Part shown: in pieces, positions 8,191 through 22,761 of the stretch | Layout: each line of letters starts with the position of its first letter | Numbering within the stretch: the first letter of the stretch is position 1 | Virus record (IMG/VR): IMGVR_UViG_3300032160_001545 | Location: 1-27,093 of that record | DNA from: a virus | Length of the DNA stretch: 27,093 nt | Direction: 5' to 3' (one strand) | Program-made: the position numbers and the translations under genes | Notes under the pieces: generated by a model | The model's database searches: none | What the model was told of the DNA's origin: nothing | The model's input: only the letters and a program-made list of their open reading frames with translations

Positions 8191-8286
8191 AAGCAGTGGC
8201 AGCCGACGCCACCGTGAGCACGGCTGCCGATGTTGTGGGCACCGACTTGTTAACAATTTTGTGACCTGAAAAGGGGGTGAAAGAAA

Positions 8287-8337
8287 ATGGTCAAAGAAAA
8301 GAGAGTTACAACGCGCTATACGTCGCGTTTCGACTGA
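8287..8337 (+). other. 16-codon leader ORF in frame with the candidate capsid gene
   Basis: ATG 8287 is preceded by AAGGGGGTGAAAG, the best ribosome site in this stretch. It opens a 16-codon basic peptide (MVKEKRVTTRYTSRFD) ending at TGA 8335-8337. The same frame continues without another stop through eight codons (CREIAERE) into GTG 8362, the assigned start of the next gene. It may be a leader peptide for re-initiation, the N-terminus of a readthrough product, or an N-terminus split by a substitution (TGG to TGA). Apart from this and the hairpin, the 8164-8361 gap shows nothing I can support. Confidence 0.45.
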
Positions 8338-12009: not shown

Positions 12010-12228
12010 ATGTGGAAGGCGCTGACACTCTCGCTTTTATTCGTGGGCTGCAGCCAAAGGCGTACGCCGTTGCCCGCACCGCCGTTGCCCGCAGCGCCGT
12101 TGCCTGCACCGCCCACTATTTCCATGTGCGCCTCGGGCACGGTAATCGTGAATCCCAACGGGCCGAACTGCTGCATGCAATTCGACTTGAGCGGCAAACT
12201 TGGCTGCACGCCGATAAAGGGGAACTGA
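12010..12228 (+). CDS. Small Pro-rich lipoprotein, 72 aa
   Basis: The first 14 residues (MWKALTLSLLFVGC) form a short lipoprotein signal with lipobox F-V-G-C. A Pro/Ala repeat (PLPAPPLPAAPLPAPP) follows, then a Cys-containing tail (ISMCASG, GPNCCMQFDLSG, LGCTP). It lies between two other lipoprotein-like genes, and the next start (TGATG) overlaps its stop. In tailed phages such small Pro-rich lipoproteins can be outer-membrane spanins (o-spanin, Rz1). That is a reasonable guess here, with the 81-residue membrane and coiled-coil protein at 12973 as a possible inner-membrane partner. No pairing evidence beyond layout is available. Confidence 0.6.
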   Translation: MWKALTLSLLFVGCSQRRTPLPAPPLPAAPLPAPPTISMCASGTVIVNPNGPNCCMQFDLSGKLGCTPIKGN

Positions 12229-12761
12229 TGAAAACGCGCCACTCGCTTCTGATCTTCGTCCTCATCTTCGCGCTACTCCTGACCGCCTGCAGCACGTGGC
12301 CCACGATAATCGCCACGGCGGAATCGCTCGCCTCGATCACTACGATCTTTGAGCCCGGCATCGGTGCACTTTCCGCGCTCGCCGTGAGCCTCTTGGAGTC
12401 GGCCGAAAGCGCCGCGACCGTGTACAACAAAAGCAAAAGCACCTCGACCGAGCAAGCGTACATCGCCGCAATTCAGGACATAGAGACACGGTTGCCGGAT
12501 GAGCTGCAGAAATTGAGAAACGCCGGCGTGAGCATTCCCGCGGCTGATCTCGCGAAGGCGCAGGCTACCGTCAATATCATTCTTGATTGGGTAGAAGCCG
12601 AAGCCGCGCAGGTGCCGGCAACCGCGGGAATGGTGGCCGCGAAGCGCCAGGCTCGAGCAGTCGGACCAGCACCCAAGCGGATGACGCGCGCCCAGATCAA
12701 AGCGCGATGGGATAAAGAAGTGTGCGGCGGGGATGCCGCGTGCGCCGCAAAGGTGAAGTAG
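12228..12761 (+). CDS. Helical lipoprotein, 177 aa
   Basis: The signal MKTRHSLLIFVLIFALLLTAC-S has a clear L-T-A-C lipobox. The mature protein is predominantly helical and Ala-rich (SLLESAESAATVYNKSK, EQAYIAAIQDIETRLPDEL) and ends with a basic, Cys-containing tail (KARWDKEVCGGDAACAAKVK). It is likely tethered to a membrane facing the periplasm. Its setting among small membrane proteins and a transglycosylase suggests lysis or cell-envelope passage, but no family is recognised. The start is fixed by TGATG overlap with the preceding stop. Confidence 0.66.
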   Translation: MKTRHSLLIFVLIFALLLTACSTWPTIIATAESLASITTIFEPGIGALSALAVSLLESAESAATVYNKSKSTSTEQAYIAAIQDIETRLPDELQKLRNAGVSIPAADLAKAQATVNIILDWVEAEAAQVPATAGMVAAKRQARAVGPAPKRMTRAQIKARWDKEVCGGDAACAAKVK

Positions 12762-13218: not shown

Positions 13219-13455
13219 ATGGCATACGCGCTCGAGGTTCTGATCATCGACGAAGGCGACGGCACGATTAAAGTGGGCCACACCTTTTACGGAGAAACCG
13301 AGCGCGAGGTGCGGACCTACTTCCGCGAGCATCAGCAATCGTGCGAGTACTTCGCCGCGGCCGTGAAGGCCGGCCGGGCACTCGAGGAGCTCGAAGAGAT
13401 CGACGACGACGAACTCCCCGACGCGGCAGACTTCGAAGAGGAGGAGGCAGGATGA
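13219..13455 (+). CDS. 78-aa acidic cytoplasmic protein
   Basis: The gene directly abuts the preceding TAA and ends in the ATGA of the transglycosylase gene. The N-terminal half looks like a small alpha/beta unit (LEVLIIDEGDGTIKVGHTFY, ETEREVRTYFREHQQSCEYF). The C-terminal third is extremely acidic (LEELEEIDDDELPDAADFEE). I recall similar 'HTFYGETE.EVRTYFREH' proteins from phage genomes without assigned function. The acidic tail could mimic DNA or dock a basic partner such as the 51-residue protein; that is speculation. Confidence 0.65.
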   Translation: MAYALEVLIIDEGDGTIKVGHTFYGETEREVRTYFREHQQSCEYFAAAVKAGRALEELEEIDDDELPDAADFEEEEAG

Positions 13456-13982
13456 CAGCCGACGTTCTCGCACTCCTGCAGTCCGCGGCCGCACGGTACG
13501 GCCTCGATCCGGCCCTCGTGATCGCTCAGGCCAACGCGGAGTCGGGCGGCCGGCAGTACGACTCGAGTGGCAACGTGCTCACCTCATCCGCCGGCGCTCT
13601 CGGCGTTATGCAATTGATGCCGGCGACGGCAGCCGGGCTCGGCGTGGACCCGACCGACACCGCGCAGAACATCGACGGCGGCGTGCGCTATCTCGCGCAA
13701 CTGATCAAGGAATTCGGGGGCAACACCACGCTAGCGCTCGCTGCCTATAACTGGGGGCCGGGCAACGTGTCGAAAAACGGGCTCAACAATTGGCCCACCG
13801 AGACGATGAACTACGTGAGCTCGATCATGGCCGCGATCGGCAACGTGTTCTCGCCGAGTGACGCGCCGGCGGATCCAAACGCACCGCCAGACACAACGGG
13901 CGGAACCGGCTCGAGCAATCTGCTGATCTGGGCGGCCGTCGCTGCACTTGCGCTCTGGGGTGCAAGCGAAATCTGGGGTTGA
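13452..13982 (+). CDS. Membrane-anchored lytic transglycosylase (SLT/goose-lysozyme-like fold), 176 aa
   Basis: The catalytic domain fills residues 1-120. It has A-N-A-E30-S-G-G with the family's catalytic Glu, then S-S-A-G-A-L-G-V-M-Q-L-M-P-A-T (about 45-59) and A-A-Y-N-W-G-P-G-N-V, all hallmark SLT-type motifs. The enzyme cleaves the MurNAc-GlcNAc bond of peptidoglycan. Unlike typical soluble endolysins it ends in a Pro/Gly/Ser linker and a hydrophobic anchor (about 156-176, NLLIWAAVAALALWGASEIWG). That suggests a membrane- or virion-membrane-bound enzyme for local wall opening during entry, as P7 does in PRD1. A role in host lysis is also possible. The start is fixed by the ATGA overlap. 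Confidence 0.9.
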   Translation: MTADVLALLQSAAARYGLDPALVIAQANAESGGRQYDSSGNVLTSSAGALGVMQLMPATAAGLGVDPTDTAQNIDGGVRYLAQLIKEFGGNTTLALAAYNWGPGNVSKNGLNNWPTETMNYVSSIMAAIGNVFSPSDAPADPNAPPDTTGGTGSSNLLIWAAVAALALWGASEIWG

Positions 13983-14006
13983 CAATGCCGCGCAAATTTT
14001 TACACT
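13979..14006 (+). promoter_or_regulatory. Possible sigma-70-type promoter at the fibre gene
   Basis: TTGACA (13979-13984), a perfect -35 box, is followed after 16 bases by TACACT (14001-14006), four of six matches to TATAAT. The region is unusually A/T-rich for this window. It overlaps the first codons assigned to the fibre gene, so it could serve a shorter transcript or be fortuitous. Confidence 0.3.
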
Positions 14007-17000
14007 GCCGTCAAATTTTTACACTGCCGTCAAATTTTTACAGGCAAAGTCGGCAGCTCGGTACCCTTCTCGCTTTCCTCTTCTGTGCCGCATCCGCGTG
14101 GGCACAGTTTACCCAGGTGTCGGGCACGATCACCGACCCGAACGGCCTACCATACGCAAATGGAACGATCAGTGCCGCGCTCGTTTCGAGTGCCAGTCCC
14201 ACTCTAAACGGCTTGCCGTACACCCCACCAACGCAACCCTCTGGACTCAATAGCTCGGGCTCGTTCGTGATGAACCTTGCCGCGAATGCTTCACTACTCC
14301 CAGCCGCAAGCACGTGGAGTTTTACCGTCAATTGCGGTACGGGTTGCGTCTTGCCGGCCGGGGGGCTCGGCCCCGTATCCTTCACCATCACCGGCATTAC
14401 GATCGCGGGCGCCTCGCAAAACATCTCCGCACAGTTGCAGGCCGCGGCGCTCCCCATCTCGATTCCAGCGAGCGGCAGCTTTCCGACAGCCGCAAATGCA
14501 ACATTCGGCGCCGGCGTGGTCACTCTCACCACGTTGACCGGCAATTTTCCAGCAGCCTATCTAGTCGGCGCAACCATCTCCGTCACCGGATGCACCACCG
14601 CCGGGGATAACATCAGCGCAGCCATTGCGACCGGCGGCGCCGGCACGAATACACTCACTTATGCCGACGCCGGCGGCGGCGGCCCGGCTACCGGCTGTAT
14701 CGCGCATATTGTTTCGGGCACGGCCGCGCCACCGTTCAACACCGTAGGTGCTGGCACCAATCCTAACGCCCTGCTGGTTTCGGGGAGTCTCGCACCAACC
14801 GGCGGCGGAACCATCACCACGAACAATGTGGGAGTTGCCAGTGCCACAGTCCTCGGCAGCAACGGCAGCAGCGCACCCATCGCCGCCGGCTTGACCAACA
14901 CAAATATCTGGATCGGCAGCATCGGGGGCTTGCCCGTTGCGAATGCACTCTCGGGAGATGCTTCGCTCGCGAATAATGGCGCCGTCACGAATAAGGGCAT
15001 GAATGGCACACTTTTCTCGAGTCTCGCCACTGGCCCGCTGTGCAACACCACGGCAACCGGCGTGCCCTTCATCTGTGCGGCCGGCAACTTCCCAACCCTC
15101 AATCAAAACACCAGCGGATCCGCGGCCAGCTTCACCGGCTCGCTCACCGGCGATGTTACCGGCACACAGGGTGCAACGACTGTCACCGCAATTCACGGCA
15201 CGATCCTCACCAGCCTTGCGACTGGCCCACTGTGCAACACCACATCAACCGGCGTGCCCTTCATCTGCGGCGTCGGCAATTATCCGATCTTCAATCAAAA
15301 CACCACGGGCACAGCCGCATCGATCACGGGCGCCCTCACGCTCGCCAACACGCCACTGACCACGAATAACGACTTACTGGCGGAGCTCGGGGGAGTGCTC
15401 GCTCGAGTGCCAGGCGGCACGAACGGAACATGGCTCGGAATCTCCGGCGGGGTGCTCGCCTACAGCACGCCCAGCGTCACGCTCTCGGGAATGTTGCAAG
15501 GGCAGGCAGCCGTTGGCGGCGCTCTCACCACGAATCTCGCGCCGAGCAGCGCGCGCATTTTTGCCTCTTCGTTTCGCACCGGCGCCGGCCTCACCTCGCC
15601 GTGCTCGACGCTGCAGCAAGCCGTCGGCAATCTTGGATCCTTCGGCAATATCATCGACGCCGGCGATCTCGCCAACACCTCCGGCCCGAACGTCGGCACC
15701 TTCGCCGGGCTCAGCTACACCAACACCGCATGTGGACTTGACTCCAACATCTTCGGCGGGTTCTCGGGCGGCCAAGCGTCGACTTCGGTGATGAACGGCG
15801 GGGAAATCGACCTCGGGCCGATGAACCTGATCGTCTCGCTCGTGCCGTCCTTCTATGGTGTCTGTTGTCAAACGGTCACCCTCAACCAAACCCCACCGAT
15901 CGGGGTGATGATGATCCCGAACGGTGTGATCGGACTGAAGGGCCGCGGCCGCGGCTACGCCGGCACCCGCAACACTACCATCACCGTCGCCGCTTCTGCT
16001 GCGAATGGATCCGTCGCACCCCAGGCTCGCTCGTGGACGATCAGCGGAATCACCGCCAGTGCCATTGCCGTCCAAAATCAGAAATACGGCGCCGTGCACC
16101 GCGAGTACATGACGATTACCGCGACGGCGAACAGTTTCGGGATTAACTCAATCAGCGGCAACGGCACTCTTGCTACCGTCACCATGAACGGCCTGATCTC
16201 CGGCGAACTCTCGGCCGGGCAGACTGTCACCGTGTCGGGTAACGTGACTTTTAACGGCACGTACAGCGTGTGCGGCGCCGGCGTGGGCGGCAATTGCACC
16301 TCGCCACCCGTCACCGTGGCCGGCGTCACTACCTTTACGATCTCGACCGCGACCGTGGGCACCCAGGCCGGCGGCTCGCTTGCCGTGGGGCCGAACTTTG
16401 CCCCCGGCGAGTATATACAGATCGAAGGCGCGACCGGCGCCGCCAACGTGAACGATGGACGATGGAGAGTGTGTGCGACGCAGGTGAACGTCAACGACGG
16501 TGTGGGCGGGGATAACAACTGCCCGGTTGCATTGCCAGGCGCGTCCGGCAGTCCGAACACATTGGCCGTGGTGGGCATCAGCGCGGACAGTTCCCCCAAA
16601 CTGCAGGGTGCGACTTCCGTCACGTGCGCCTCGGGGTGTGGCACGATCGTCGGCGTGCTTCCCGTGGTCGAGCTGGGAGATCCAACCAAGGGCAATTCTC
16701 AGTTCGGCGAGCTTGTCGATCACATCCTTGTGGACTGCAATAATGTGCCCTCGTGCGTGAACTATCGCGATCTGACCGGCAACGAGCAAAGTGGAATCTG
16801 GTTCTCGGGCGGCACCGGCAGCCAGGAAGCATGTTTCATCGCCTCGACCAACGTCGGACAAAACTCTTATGGCTGGTTTTCGCTCGAGTGCTTGCCGGAC
16901 GTCGGCCAAACCTGTCTGCCTGGTTCGACGGGCTACATTATGTCCGACAACGGCGCCCGGATCATCAACGGTTGGACGTACGTCGCGCCGAACTCCTGCT

Positions 17001-17803
17001 GGCCGATCACCGGCTTCTATAACGACATTAACGGCACTTCCTTAATCGGCACCGGCCACTCGGAGCACACCATCTTCGGATTTTTGGCGGGACAGAACGC
17101 ACCCAGCTCGAACTGGGTCGCGACGGGCGTCGGAGGAATGCCGGCGAATCCGGGCAATGTCACCGACGGACCTTACCAGGGGAACCCACCGCCAGGCGCC
17201 GCGGCCCAAGCCGTTGCCGGCGCCTTCCCACAACAGATCAACGGGGCCAACTCCGCGTTTACCTCGGACTATGTTTTCATCGCCCAGAAGAAATCGAGCA
17301 ACGTGGCAGCCAGCTTCTTTGAGATCGCGGACGACTATTTCGGCTATACCTCGACCGATCAGCAGATCATGGTCAACGCCGTCGACACTTTCGGCAGCGG
17401 CACGGAGCCAACCCACTACACAACCAGTGCTTCGGTGCAGTCGACCCTGCAGGCGATCGGGACCGCACAGAACGGCAGTGCTGCCGGCACCGCGGCGAAT
17501 CCCTCTGTGGTGACGTTCTCGGCGACAAATCCGAATCTGCTGGGCTCCACGTCGGGCGCTTTTGCCTGCTCGGCAAGCGCTTCCACCGGCACCTGTGTGG
17601 TCAACACCACGGCAGTCACAACAAACAGCCGCATCTTCATTCAACCCACGGCAGCCTCGCCGGGCTTGACCTGCAACGCTACGCCGGACACGGGTCTCGT
17701 ACTTCAGCGGCTCGCTTCGCAGATCGCCGGCACGAGCTTCACTATCAATCTCGGCACCTTTGCAGGGAACGCCGAGTGTTTCAACTTCTGGATTATCGAC
17801 TAG
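13979..17803 (+). CDS. Large secreted fibre or adhesin-like protein, 1274 aa
   Basis: TTG 13979 (TTGA overlap) or ATG 13985 opens the frame. A 19-bp tandem repeat encodes the first residues before the signal peptide LGTLLAFLFCAASAWA-Q. Next come a beta domain (VSGTITDPNGLPYANGT) like those I remember from acidobacterial secreted proteins, a Thr/Ala/Gly-rich region and a 64-residue-period duplication (about residues 341-454). A long Gly/Asn-rich beta region with many paired Cys follows, suggesting a beta-helix. The C-terminal domain has the pattern 'TTNSRIFIQPTAA...SFTINLG', seen at the ends of some phage and bacterial fibre proteins. A receptor-binding or adhesin role is inferred. Export through Sec is unusual for a phage fibre. 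The stop overlaps the opposing gene by four bases. Confidence 0.78.
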   Translation: MTMPRKFLHCRQIFTLPSNFYRQSRQLGTLLAFLFCAASAWAQFTQVSGTITDPNGLPYANGTISAALVSSASPTLNGLPYTPPTQPSGLNSSGSFVMNLAANASLLPAASTWSFTVNCGTGCVLPAGGLGPVSFTITGITIAGASQNISAQLQAAALPISIPASGSFPTAANATFGAGVVTLTTLTGNFPAAYLVGATISVTGCTTAGDNISAAIATGGAGTNTLTYADAGGGGPATGCIAHIVSGTAAPPFNTVGAGTNPNALLVSGSLAPTGGGTITTNNVGVASATVLGSNGSSAPIAAGLTNTNIWIGSIGGLPVANALSGDASLANNGAVTNKGMNGTLFSSLATGPLCNTTATGVPFICAAGNFPTLNQNTSGSAASFTGSLTGDVTGTQGATTVTAIHGTILTSLATGPLCNTTSTGVPFICGVGNYPIFNQNTTGTAASITGALTLANTPLTTNNDLLAELGGVLARVPGGTNGTWLGISGGVLAYSTPSVTLSGMLQGQAAVGGALTTNLAPSSARIFASSFRTGAGLTSPCSTLQQAVGNLGSFGNIIDAGDLANTSGPNVGTFAGLSYTNTACGLDSNIFGGFSGGQASTSVMNGGEIDLGPMNLIVSLVPSFYGVCCQTVTLNQTPPIGVMMIPNGVIGLKGRGRGYAGTRNTTITVAASAANGSVAPQARSWTISGITASAIAVQNQKYGAVHREYMTITATANSFGINSISGNGTLATVTMNGLISGELSAGQTVTVSGNVTFNGTYSVCGAGVGGNCTSPPVTVAGVTTFTISTATVGTQAGGSLAVGPNFAPGEYIQIEGATGAANVNDGRWRVCATQVNVNDGVGGDNNCPVALPGASGSPNTLAVVGISADSSPKLQGATSVTCASGCGTIVGVLPVVELGDPTKGNSQFGELVDHILVDCNNVPSCVNYRDLTGNEQSGIWFSGGTGSQEACFIASTNVGQNSYGWFSLECLPDVGQTCLPGSTGYIMSDNGARIINGWTYVAPNSCWPITGFYNDINGTSLIGTGHSEHTIFGFLAGQNAPSSNWVATGVGGMPANPGNVTDGPYQGNPPPGAAAQAVAGAFPQQINGANSAFTSDYVFIAQKKSSNVAASFFEIADDYFGYTSTDQQIMVNAVDTFGSGTEPTHYTTSASVQSTLQAIGTAQNGSAAGTAANPSVVTFSATNPNLLGSTSGAFACSASASTGTCVVNTTAVTTNSRIFIQPTAASPGLTCNATPDTGLVLQRLASQIAGTSFTINLGTFAGNAECFNFWIID
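13993..14042. repeat. 19-bp tandem repeat within the 5' end of the fibre gene
   Basis: CAAATTTTTACACTGCCGT occurs at 13993-14011 and 14012-14030, followed by the first 12 bases again at 14031-14042. Part of a degenerate copy (ATGCCGCG) precedes it. The unit is not a multiple of three, so gain or loss of one copy would shift the frame ahead of the signal peptide. Confidence 0.9.
14999..15340 (+). repeat. Internal duplication in the fibre gene, period 192 bp
   Basis: Two 50-residue units at 14999-15148 and 15191-15340 share S-L-A-T-G-P-L-C-N-T-T-x-T-G-V-P-F-I-C and G-N-x-P-x-x-N-Q-N-T-x-G. The DNA is also similar, so this is a fairly recent or conserved 64-residue repeat. Each unit has two Cys. 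Confidence 0.85.
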
Positions 17804-20024: not shown

Positions 20025-21674
20025 TTATAGTTGCCCTCCTTGGCAAGGTGTCACGGGATCGCCACCAGGGCCACGTTGCTGCGAGTCGTTATTCCACGTG
20101 TAGATGTGCCCCGGAATTCCGCCAGCCCCGTACACCCTTATATGCGGCGCACCGACGGTAAGTGCCACTCCCCAGCCTAAGCCGTCTGAGGTCACTATAC
20201 CCTCAACATCGCCATTCACGTACCGCCCCGGCATCTTCGTCGGCTTCGGGCTGATGCCTTTGTAAACGACGTGCACGTTGCCACCGTAAAGATCCAACAG
20301 GGGAAAAAATGTAGAGGTGCACCATTGCTGCATCCCCACTCCCGTCCACTCGTAGTTTCCAATGAGCGCCCCTACCCCAAACAGCCCGTACCCTGACGGC
20401 TCGACGTTGAAGTTATTCTTAATGTAGTACTTTTGATTGACCTCGGTTTCGTGCCGGTTGCAGTCGCAGTCATTCGAGCTCGTGAAGACAATCCCTCCAA
20501 CAGCTAACACCACTTCAAGTTTGAAGTTTGTAGAGCTACAACTGGGACCCGGCGCGAAGCCATCACAGGTCGTACCGGCGGAAAATGGGGTTGCGTCCAA
20601 AACGGCATCGGCAGTTGTCGACAGGTAGCATTCCGGATCCCCTAACGGTTCCCACCCAGAGGGACAAACATACTTCGCGTTCGCGTGGTTTAGGTCGTAG
20701 AAGTTGACCGTCACGTTAGGATCACCACTGCCACAAGCCGATCCGCAGGTGCCGCTGATATGAATCGCCCCTTGGGCAAGGACCGTGTTGAGGTGATAGA
20801 GATAAGTGTTAGATGCCACCGCGAGGCTGAGCCCTGCCCCTCCCACCGTGAGGTACGTCGGCGTGAAGTACGTAGTGGACACCTCCGAGAATGTGCTTCC
20901 GTTGTCGTGGGAGATCCAAACGTTTCCGCTAGTGTCGAGCATCATGACGCTATCGTTGCCGATCGCGATAGCCCCGGCGTTGGTACTGGGAGTAAAGGGA
21001 ACGGAGCTGCTCACGTTCTGCCATCCAAGGGTTGTCTCCCACACCCAGGTTGCGTTCGCTCCGTTGACTCCCATCACGTTTCCGTCCGAGCTGACCGCGA
21101 TGTTGTCGAATGCTCCGTCTATCTGTTGCCAGCTAGTTCCGCCTGCTACCCATTCGTAAATGTTCCCGTTTCCGTTGGAAGTACCCAAGCACCAGAGGTT
21201 CCCTGCGGCGTCGATCCCGCCTTGAATACAAGCGCCGTTGGCCATTTGCTTTAAGGTTCCATCGCTCTGCAGGGTGAAGACGTTGTGAGTTGCGGTGCTT
21301 CCGAGGATCATCACCTCGGTCGCGCTTCCGGCGTAGATGGTCACGGTGTGACCATTACTGCCGGAAAGTTCCAAGTTGGTTTTCCGATTCCACGCCTGCG
21401 TCGACCAGTTCCACAGCCACACTTCATGACTGCTGTCTACGTGATAAACGGTGCCGTCGGCCGCGGCTGCAATGTTGACGGCGTTCCCGGTGAAATTCAC
21501 CCAGCAATTATCAGAGACACAGTTCCAGCCTGAGTACGGGCTGTAGGTGCTGTTCAGCACGTCGACGCCAGTTAGAGAGTAGGTCGCCGTGTACTGGGCC
21601 AGTCCCGGCAGGGACAGCAGAAGGACCGCATACACTCCGAAAACCAAGCGTGCTATTTTGTGGTAGCTGATCAT
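20025..21674 (-). CDS. Secreted beta-propeller-like protein, 549 aa
   Basis: ATG 21674 has a GGAGGGG site. The signal peptide is IARLVFGVYAVLLLSLPGLA-Q. Residues of about 50-310 form repeated blades with the tectonin-like pattern 'I-A-x-x-x-D-G-x-V/L-W ... W-x-x-I' (AAAADGTVYHVDSSHEVWLW, AAGNLWCLGT, SSDGNVMGVNGANATWVWET, TSGNVWISHDNGSTF). Such propellers bind ligands or glycans outside the cell. The C-terminal half is Cys-rich (CGSACGSG, CPSGWEPLGDPECY, NDCDCNRH) and has no family I know. By eye its GC content is lower than its neighbours, near 50% in sampled lines, which suggests a separately acquired cargo gene. It is the only large exported product in the leftward block. Confidence 0.78.
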   Translation of the reverse strand: MISYHKIARLVFGVYAVLLLSLPGLAQYTATYSLTGVDVLNSTYSPYSGWNCVSDNCWVNFTGNAVNIAAAADGTVYHVDSSHEVWLWNWSTQAWNRKTNLELSGSNGHTVTIYAGSATEVMILGSTATHNVFTLQSDGTLKQMANGACIQGGIDAAGNLWCLGTSNGNGNIYEWVAGGTSWQQIDGAFDNIAVSSDGNVMGVNGANATWVWETTLGWQNVSSSVPFTPSTNAGAIAIGNDSVMMLDTSGNVWISHDNGSTFSEVSTTYFTPTYLTVGGAGLSLAVASNTYLYHLNTVLAQGAIHISGTCGSACGSGDPNVTVNFYDLNHANAKYVCPSGWEPLGDPECYLSTTADAVLDATPFSAGTTCDGFAPGPSCSSTNFKLEVVLAVGGIVFTSSNDCDCNRHETEVNQKYYIKNNFNVEPSGYGLFGVGALIGNYEWTGVGMQQWCTSTFFPLLDLYGGNVHVVYKGISPKPTKMPGRYVNGDVEGIVTSDGLGWGVALTVGAPHIRVYGAGGIPGHIYTWNNDSQQRGPGGDPVTPCQGGQL

Positions 21675-21724
21675 CAAGTGGCCCCTCCGTTGGGCCGGTT
21701 GTGGTGATTGGTGAGGGCCGGGAC

Positions 21725-22660
21725 TTAGCGCGTCAACGCCAGTTCCGGCCCGCTGGTTAAAATCGTGGGCCACTCCCGCACCCGTAGACTCTCGGGCCAC
21801 TCGGAAGGATCGCCGCCCTTGCGATCCTTGATTGGCAGCGCTGGACAGTGCAGCAGTGTTTCAGAACCCAATATCGGGGTAATCCAACGTTTCGGGCAGC
21901 TCCCCACCTGTTTCATGAAGAACGGCACGCCGGCAGCCTTGCACTGCTCTCGCAGGGATTCGGCCCAGGCCAGGTTGAATGGTCGCGCCTGTGAGCCGGA
22001 TTCGCCGCCGCAGATGATCCAGTTGAGTTTGGTGCACCACAGAGAAATCCCGGCCGCGGCTTCCAAGTTTACCGCCTCGAGCATTGGCTCGACGCTGGCC
22101 CCACGCATCGCCGCCGGTGTCTGAAGCAGCAACGGCATCTCTACGTCCGCATCTTTCTGTCGGCCGAAGGATGCCATCTCGATCACGTTGGGCAAGGGCC
22201 ACGGGCCATCGACGGCACCGAGCACGTTGCGCTTTGTTGTCGGGTGTCTCAGAAACAGCTTTCGCTGATCACTCCGCTTGGTGAGCACAATGTAAAAGTG
22301 CTGAGGAGTCGCCGCCATCACCGAATAGATCTGATCGACCCATGCCCACGGCACCTCTTGGCTGTACAGGTCCGTCATGGAGCACGGGAACACTTTCCGC
22401 GGTTGCTTCCAGTGCAGGGGTTGCTGCAAAGTCTTTTCATCCAAAAAGTATTCGACCAGGGGAAGTTTGTCCGCAGCGTAGGGCACGCCGTTGCCGTGGC
22501 GGCCCCGGTTGGTGCCGGCTACGATGTTTTGGTGCTCGGCGTAGCAGTTGCGGCAGGCATCATTCACCTTGACGCAGTGCCAGCCCACTTTGCCGTCAGA
22601 GCGGCGCCGGGCTCGGATCGGGTTCCATGTGGCATCGGTCCACTCGATCTTTGTGCTCAC
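21725..22660 (-). CDS. DUF5131 / phage Gp37-Gp68 family protein, 311 aa
   Basis: GTG 22660 overlaps the preceding TGA. The N-terminus has the family signature I-E-W-T-D-A-T-W-N-P, with a C29..C36-x-x-C39-Y-A cysteine cluster. Later come V-F-P-C-S-M-T-D-L-Y, H-F-Y-I-V-L-T-K-R, G-A-S-V-E-P-M-L, W-I-I-C-G-G-E-S-G, and V-P-F-F-M-K-Q-V-G. These match the radical-SAM-like DUF5131 proteins common in phages and mobile elements, whose substrate is unknown. Length is normal for the family. It lies downstream of a DNA methyltransferase and an HNH nuclease, consistent with nucleic-acid modification, but the context does not prove it. Confidence 0.85.
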   Translation of the reverse strand: MSTKIEWTDATWNPIRARRRSDGKVGWHCVKVNDACRNCYAEHQNIVAGTNRGRHGNGVPYAADKLPLVEYFLDEKTLQQPLHWKQPRKVFPCSMTDLYSQEVPWAWVDQIYSVMAATPQHFYIVLTKRSDQRKLFLRHPTTKRNVLGAVDGPWPLPNVIEMASFGRQKDADVEMPLLLQTPAAMRGASVEPMLEAVNLEAAAGISLWCTKLNWIICGGESGSQARPFNLAWAESLREQCKAAGVPFFMKQVGSCPKRWITPILGSETLLHCPALPIKDRKGGDPSEWPESLRVREWPTILTSGPELALTR

Positions 22661-22761
22661 GAAATCCTCATTCCGAGCCAACCGCGCCGGTTCCAACCGT
22701 AGTGATTAAGCCAATATTTGATGTGGTCAAATTGATGTCTGGAATTGTTTTCCAAGTTCAT
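22657..22761 (-). CDS. 34-aa peptide between coupled genes
   Basis: ATG at 22761 overlaps the preceding TGA (TGATG) and the stop overlaps the GTG of the DUF5131 gene (GTGA). The peptide is polar and aromatic (NSRHQFDHIKYWLNHYGWNR) with a basic end. The double overlap is the main support. It could be a short real protein or simply a translated linker that couples its neighbours. Confidence 0.5.
   Translation of the reverse strand: MNLENNSRHQFDHIKYWLNHYGWNRRGWLGMRIS

Follow-up and report, generated by a model that had tools for sequence, protein, structure and literature searches.

Does a tandem repeat with a unit length not divisible by three, lying at the very beginning of a long phage gene, serve as a switch for this gene, or is it the trace of an event of another kind? 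The question is raised by a virus record of 27,093 bp (the window), in which a fibre-like gene opens with such a repeat, and which the first-pass annotation had taken for the classic layout of slipped-strand phase variation. Our analysis suggests that the array is probably the product of a recent tandem duplication, private to this lineage, that copied the translation start of a putatively exported fibre-like phage gene, and we see no sign of a selected switch at it.

The array and the start of the gene

Tandem Repeats Finder places a perfect tandem array at 13993-14042 (+), with a period of 19, 2.63 copies of CAAATTTTTACACTGCCGT, 100% matches and 0 indels. This confirms the earlier observation of a 19-bp non-triplet repeat of 2.6 copies between the start codon and the signal-peptide core; the interval first given for it, 13981-14060, does hold the repeat and is too generous. 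With up to 3 mismatches allowed, matches to CAAATTTTTACACTGCCGT in the window are confined to the array (chance expectation 0.02). Two other repeats were seen in the window, an imperfect non-triplet tandem duplication (13 bp x 1.9) at 8276-8300, at the putative gene start GTG 8277, and a 15-bp x 3.3 triplet repeat at 12065-12113 within the ORF 12012-12761, where it encodes a short peptide repeat.

Parsed from ATG 13985, the block on the plus strand reads ATGCCGCGCAAATTTTTACA (20 bp, 13985-14004), CTGCCGTCAAATTTTTACA (19 bp, 14005-14023) and once more CTGCCGTCAAATTTTTACA (19 bp, 14024-14042), followed by GGCAAAG. The second copy has CTG in place of the ATG of the first, and the third, in frame with ATG 13985, would give a leader of 27 codons. 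The block is probably better read as the translation start in triplicate (20+19+19 bp), with the ATG in the first, so that the array, which had been described as lying after the start codon and does lie between ATG and signal-peptide core, would itself include this codon and extend over 13985-14042. That the first block is a diverged copy of the unit bearing the start codon is likely rather than proven: its upstream part is equalled in likeness to the unit at 0.7% of window positions, and the likeness of the copy is matched by 2.5% of random sequences with the stop TGA and the start ATG fixed, a modest resemblance that counts against a duplication. If the three-copy parse holds, the upstream two copies contribute 39 bp (20+19), or 13 codons, which leaves the frame intact. 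One period of 19 bp is also the distance from one ACA trinucleotide (in TTGACA, ahead of the ATG) to another (in TTTACA, ahead of GGC), and the two may be a natural pair for slippage.

The gene (13985-17803, +), delimited by its open reading frame and by profile and fold comparison, encodes 1272 aa from ATG 13985. The 1274 residues reported earlier correspond to the ORF-list start at TTG 13979; the long reading frame stands, and this TTG overlaps the stop of the upstream gene, an SLT transglycosylase (lysozyme; 13452-13982, +) recognised by domain and sequence comparison, which stops 2 nt before the ATG. A Shine-Dalgarno-like GGGGT (13975-13979, +) lies 5 nt ahead of the ATG, the sole in-frame ATG upstream of the mature protein. 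From the array to the predicted cleavage site of the signal peptide, the ORF scan found no in-frame ATG, GTG or TTG, and the downstream start codon for which the first-pass annotation had proposed to look is thus absent in any usable form. Judged from the sequence, ATG 13985 is the sole plausible start, and it is supported by the fibre-like genes of two related loci (L070 and L073), because these likewise start just past an upstream stop (4 nt past it, against 2 nt in the window); the preceding gene there has a C-terminus resembling that of the window transglycosylase (ALALWLAMKYFG against ALALWGASEIWG).

The present frame is open as far as the stop at 17801. The two other frames past the array meet stops at 14205 and 14251, therefore gain or loss of one unit would leave a truncated peptide of roughly 70-100 residues. 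The earlier arithmetic, by which a change of one copy shifts the frame, was right, and such a change is predicted to abolish the product, with the reservation that an upstream GTG or TTG might rescue one state. Loss of one unit would bring GTG 13960 or TTG 13948, both inside the upstream gene, into frame, and since neither has an evident ribosome site, this state would be at most leaky.

Some further features of the start region were considered and set aside. A candidate ribosomal slippery site in copy 3 (A AAT TTT) would be of no help to expression, since a -1 slip there from the present frame meets the stop at 14251. The mRNA accessibility at the start is nothing unusual (0.52 unpaired in the window vs 0.35-0.64 in relatives). 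Low GC is no special feature either, as it is shared to the same degree by other gene boundaries in the window; such ordinary boundaries are compatible with a duplication.

The leader among its relatives

Signal peptides were judged from hydropathy and charge alone. By these measures and by family comparison the leader (13985-14104, +; 40 codons) has an n-region of 23 residues with a charge of +5, a hydrophobic core, and AWA before QF; the basic n-region, the core and the small pre-cleavage residues, conserved in the family, are those of a Sec signal peptide, and the array sits in the n-region of this predicted peptide. Homologues were collected from dozens of IMG/VR contigs by the degenerate pattern DPNGxPYA, by a profile of the N-terminal domain and by single proteins, and 47 distinct 5' regions were compared, 41 of which (the window included) gave a leader with a start codon. 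Leader starts were set by rule as the nearest ATG at least 15 codons upstream, and the few short leaders that result, for instance the one of 16 codons in L098, are probably underestimated.

With starts so chosen, the leaders of the 40 relatives have 16-36 codons (median about 21), and the window leader with its 40 is the longest. Its n-region of 23 residues compares with 3-15 residues in 20 relatives; counted from copy 3, it would have 10 residues and a charge of +2, which is normal. The array was found in none of the 40 homologous leaders on other phage contigs, and the longest self-match, 31 bases in the window leader, is at most 10 in the others. Identity in the mature domain reaches no more than 77% even in the nearest relatives; their leaders are unrelated, and a single-copy ancestor was not seen among them. 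Among arrays of at least 2.5 copies in the 0.81 Mb of partly overlapping comparison loci, 14 have a triplet unit and one, that of the window, a non-triplet unit. Exact-pattern search of IMG/VR, in which near-identical records may be left out, for the array or its flank matched no other contig, distant blastn against named phages gave no match, and a search of genome contigs with the whole protein and the family profile found no relative. The array appears recent because its copies are perfectly identical, and this identity together with its absence from the 40 homologous leaders argues that it is young and private. On the sequence evidence, the event was rare, private and recent, and befell a part of the protein that tolerates change.

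The family (L059-L110, and 13985-14434 of the window) consists of large fibre-like phage proteins, often with 2-3 paralogues per contig. Its members have a standard Sec signal peptide in front of the conserved QFTTVTGTVTDPNGxPYA domain, a feature odd for a virion protein; a few (L079, L080) are devoid of the Sec signal peptide. A 46-bp non-triplet duplication of 1.65 copies occurs in L077 (3110-3185), apparently intergenic or at a gene edge; L065 and L069 carry a similar GGTAAGGGGCGCTTTCGCGGTAA stretch ahead of fibre-like genes.

Structure prediction gives the mature N-terminal domain a beta-sandwich fold (mean pLDDT 86.7); the domain is weakly similar to CarboxypepD_reg, and its fold resembles, with moderate significance (best E 4e-4), domains that occur in phage tail fibres and further structural proteins. 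The C-terminus is weakly like PF24146 (K1-lyase_C), with 24.8 bits, below the Pfam gathering score of 27. The identity of the product as a fibre or a receptor-binding protein is plausible. Elsewhere on this phage contig, the minus strand of the window encodes a protein with a Tectonin domain, which is a lectin-like propeller (20025-21800; PF19193, E 2e-11), and a DUF5131 / phrog_2045 protein (21725-22696; E 7e-61 and 2e-73).

A probable gene-start duplication and its alternatives

We propose that the ancestral start resembled copy 3, 27 codons ahead of the mature protein, and that it was multiplied to three units; replication slippage between the flanking ACA trinucleotides would be a plausible route. 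Translation would now begin at the copy-1 ATG, behind GGGGT and 2 nt past the lysozyme stop; with copy 1 one base longer, the 13 extra codons would stay in frame and fall in the n-region, a part of the signal peptide that is poorly constrained. The export signal is therefore expected to remain functional, and the duplication would be tolerated because a permissive leader has been lengthened in frame. A change by one 19-bp unit in either direction would shift the reading frame, which makes the array a latent mutational hot spot, with a switching rate that we expect to be low. Given the extreme rarity of non-triplet arrays in the comparison loci, it may also have been selected for.

The reading with which this locus was first presented, that gain and loss of the 19-bp unit toggle the fibre-like protein in the phage population, seems to us unlikely. 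It is consistent with the non-triplet unit in the leader of the open reading frame, as in contingency genes, with both other frames ending within about 210 bp past the array, with the lack of an in-frame ATG, GTG or TTG between the array and the mature protein, and with the array being the only non-triplet one in the 0.81 Mb of comparison loci. There is also a precedent, according to the passages of PMC11868660 and PMC8766974 that cite Sorensen 2021, in the switching of phage receptor-binding genes by polyG slippage, and the remark that a slippage switch would be unusual in a viral receptor-binding gene does not hold against these reports. What tells against a switch is that 2.63 copies of a long unit are outside the range of known switch tracts, which are many copies of short units, at least 5 copies being the cut-off for longer units (PMC6321876); the layout is not the classic one. 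The array is not kept in homologous genes (0/40 leaders), as would be usual, if not obligatory, for such repeats, and on this absence it is not a conserved switch; the net addition on the three-copy parse, 39 bp, is in frame. No variant copy number was found on exact-pattern search of IMG/VR contigs, among which near-identical records may be left out, and the state with one copy lost might leak through the weak starts GTG 13960 and TTG 13948. A bolder proposal, which we regard as quite unlikely, is that a minisatellite made of the gene's own duplicated translation starts switches this putative adsorption or exported fibre-like gene among three frame states, ON from the ATG, fully OFF, and possibly leaky via the upstream GTG or TTG.

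Three other readings are less likely than a duplication. A wrong copy number in the contig is very improbable: the contig is metagenomic and tandem repeats are known to cause errors, but an array of 50 bp fits inside a usual short read, and the assembled number yields exactly the frame in which the 1272-codon ORF stays open, as a random copy number would be expected to do in one case of three. Nor do we give much credit to the repeats as regulatory DNA, either operator sites or a promoter. The promoter-like match TTGACA-16-TACACT at 13979-14006 agrees at 10 of 12 positions, but 0.5 such sites are expected in the 2 kb scanned, its -35-like box arises from the upstream stop codon and is not conserved among relatives, and a transcript from it would be without the ATG; the 19-bp unit is found nowhere else in the window. 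The promoter or operator idea was rejected as weak and not conserved; an RNA element was rejected too, no Rfam match appearing up to E 0.5. Translation from CTG 14024 in the last copy, which would make the copy number irrelevant to the frame, is highly improbable as well; this CTG is in frame and its 27-codon leader falls within the family range, but CTG is a poor start codon, the preceding AAATTTTTACA contains no ribosome-binding site, and ATG 13985 has one and is placed where relatives start.

As it stands, the locus mainly illustrates how a probable gene-start duplication can survive where the signal peptide is permissive, and it warns against taking every non-triplet repeat for a switch. 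If the copy number does vary, slippage phase variation of phage surface genes would extend from polyG to long-unit arrays and would reach a quite different phage group.

Comparison with known systems

The closest phage parallel is found in Campylobacter phages (Fletchervirus), whose receptor-binding proteins are phase-variable via polyG tracts, as far as Sorensen et al. 2021 is represented in PMC11868660, PMC8766974 and PMC10579305. Both have a non-triplet repeat in the frame of an adsorption-type phage gene, where a copy change would shift the frame; the Fletchervirus tracts, in these accounts, are mononucleotide ones with reported switching and phenotype, whereas the window has 2.63 copies of a 19-mer that is absent from homologues. 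With the bacterial translational simple-sequence-repeat contingency loci (PMC6321876) the array shares its place near the 5' end of a gene for a surface or exported protein, but its unit length and copy number are outside the cut-offs given there. It is like the ordinary small tandem duplications of prokaryotes and phages in its few copies, their perfect identity, its restriction to one lineage and, if the diverged first copy is counted, its net in-frame effect, and differs from them in a unit that is not a multiple of three and takes in the start-codon region.
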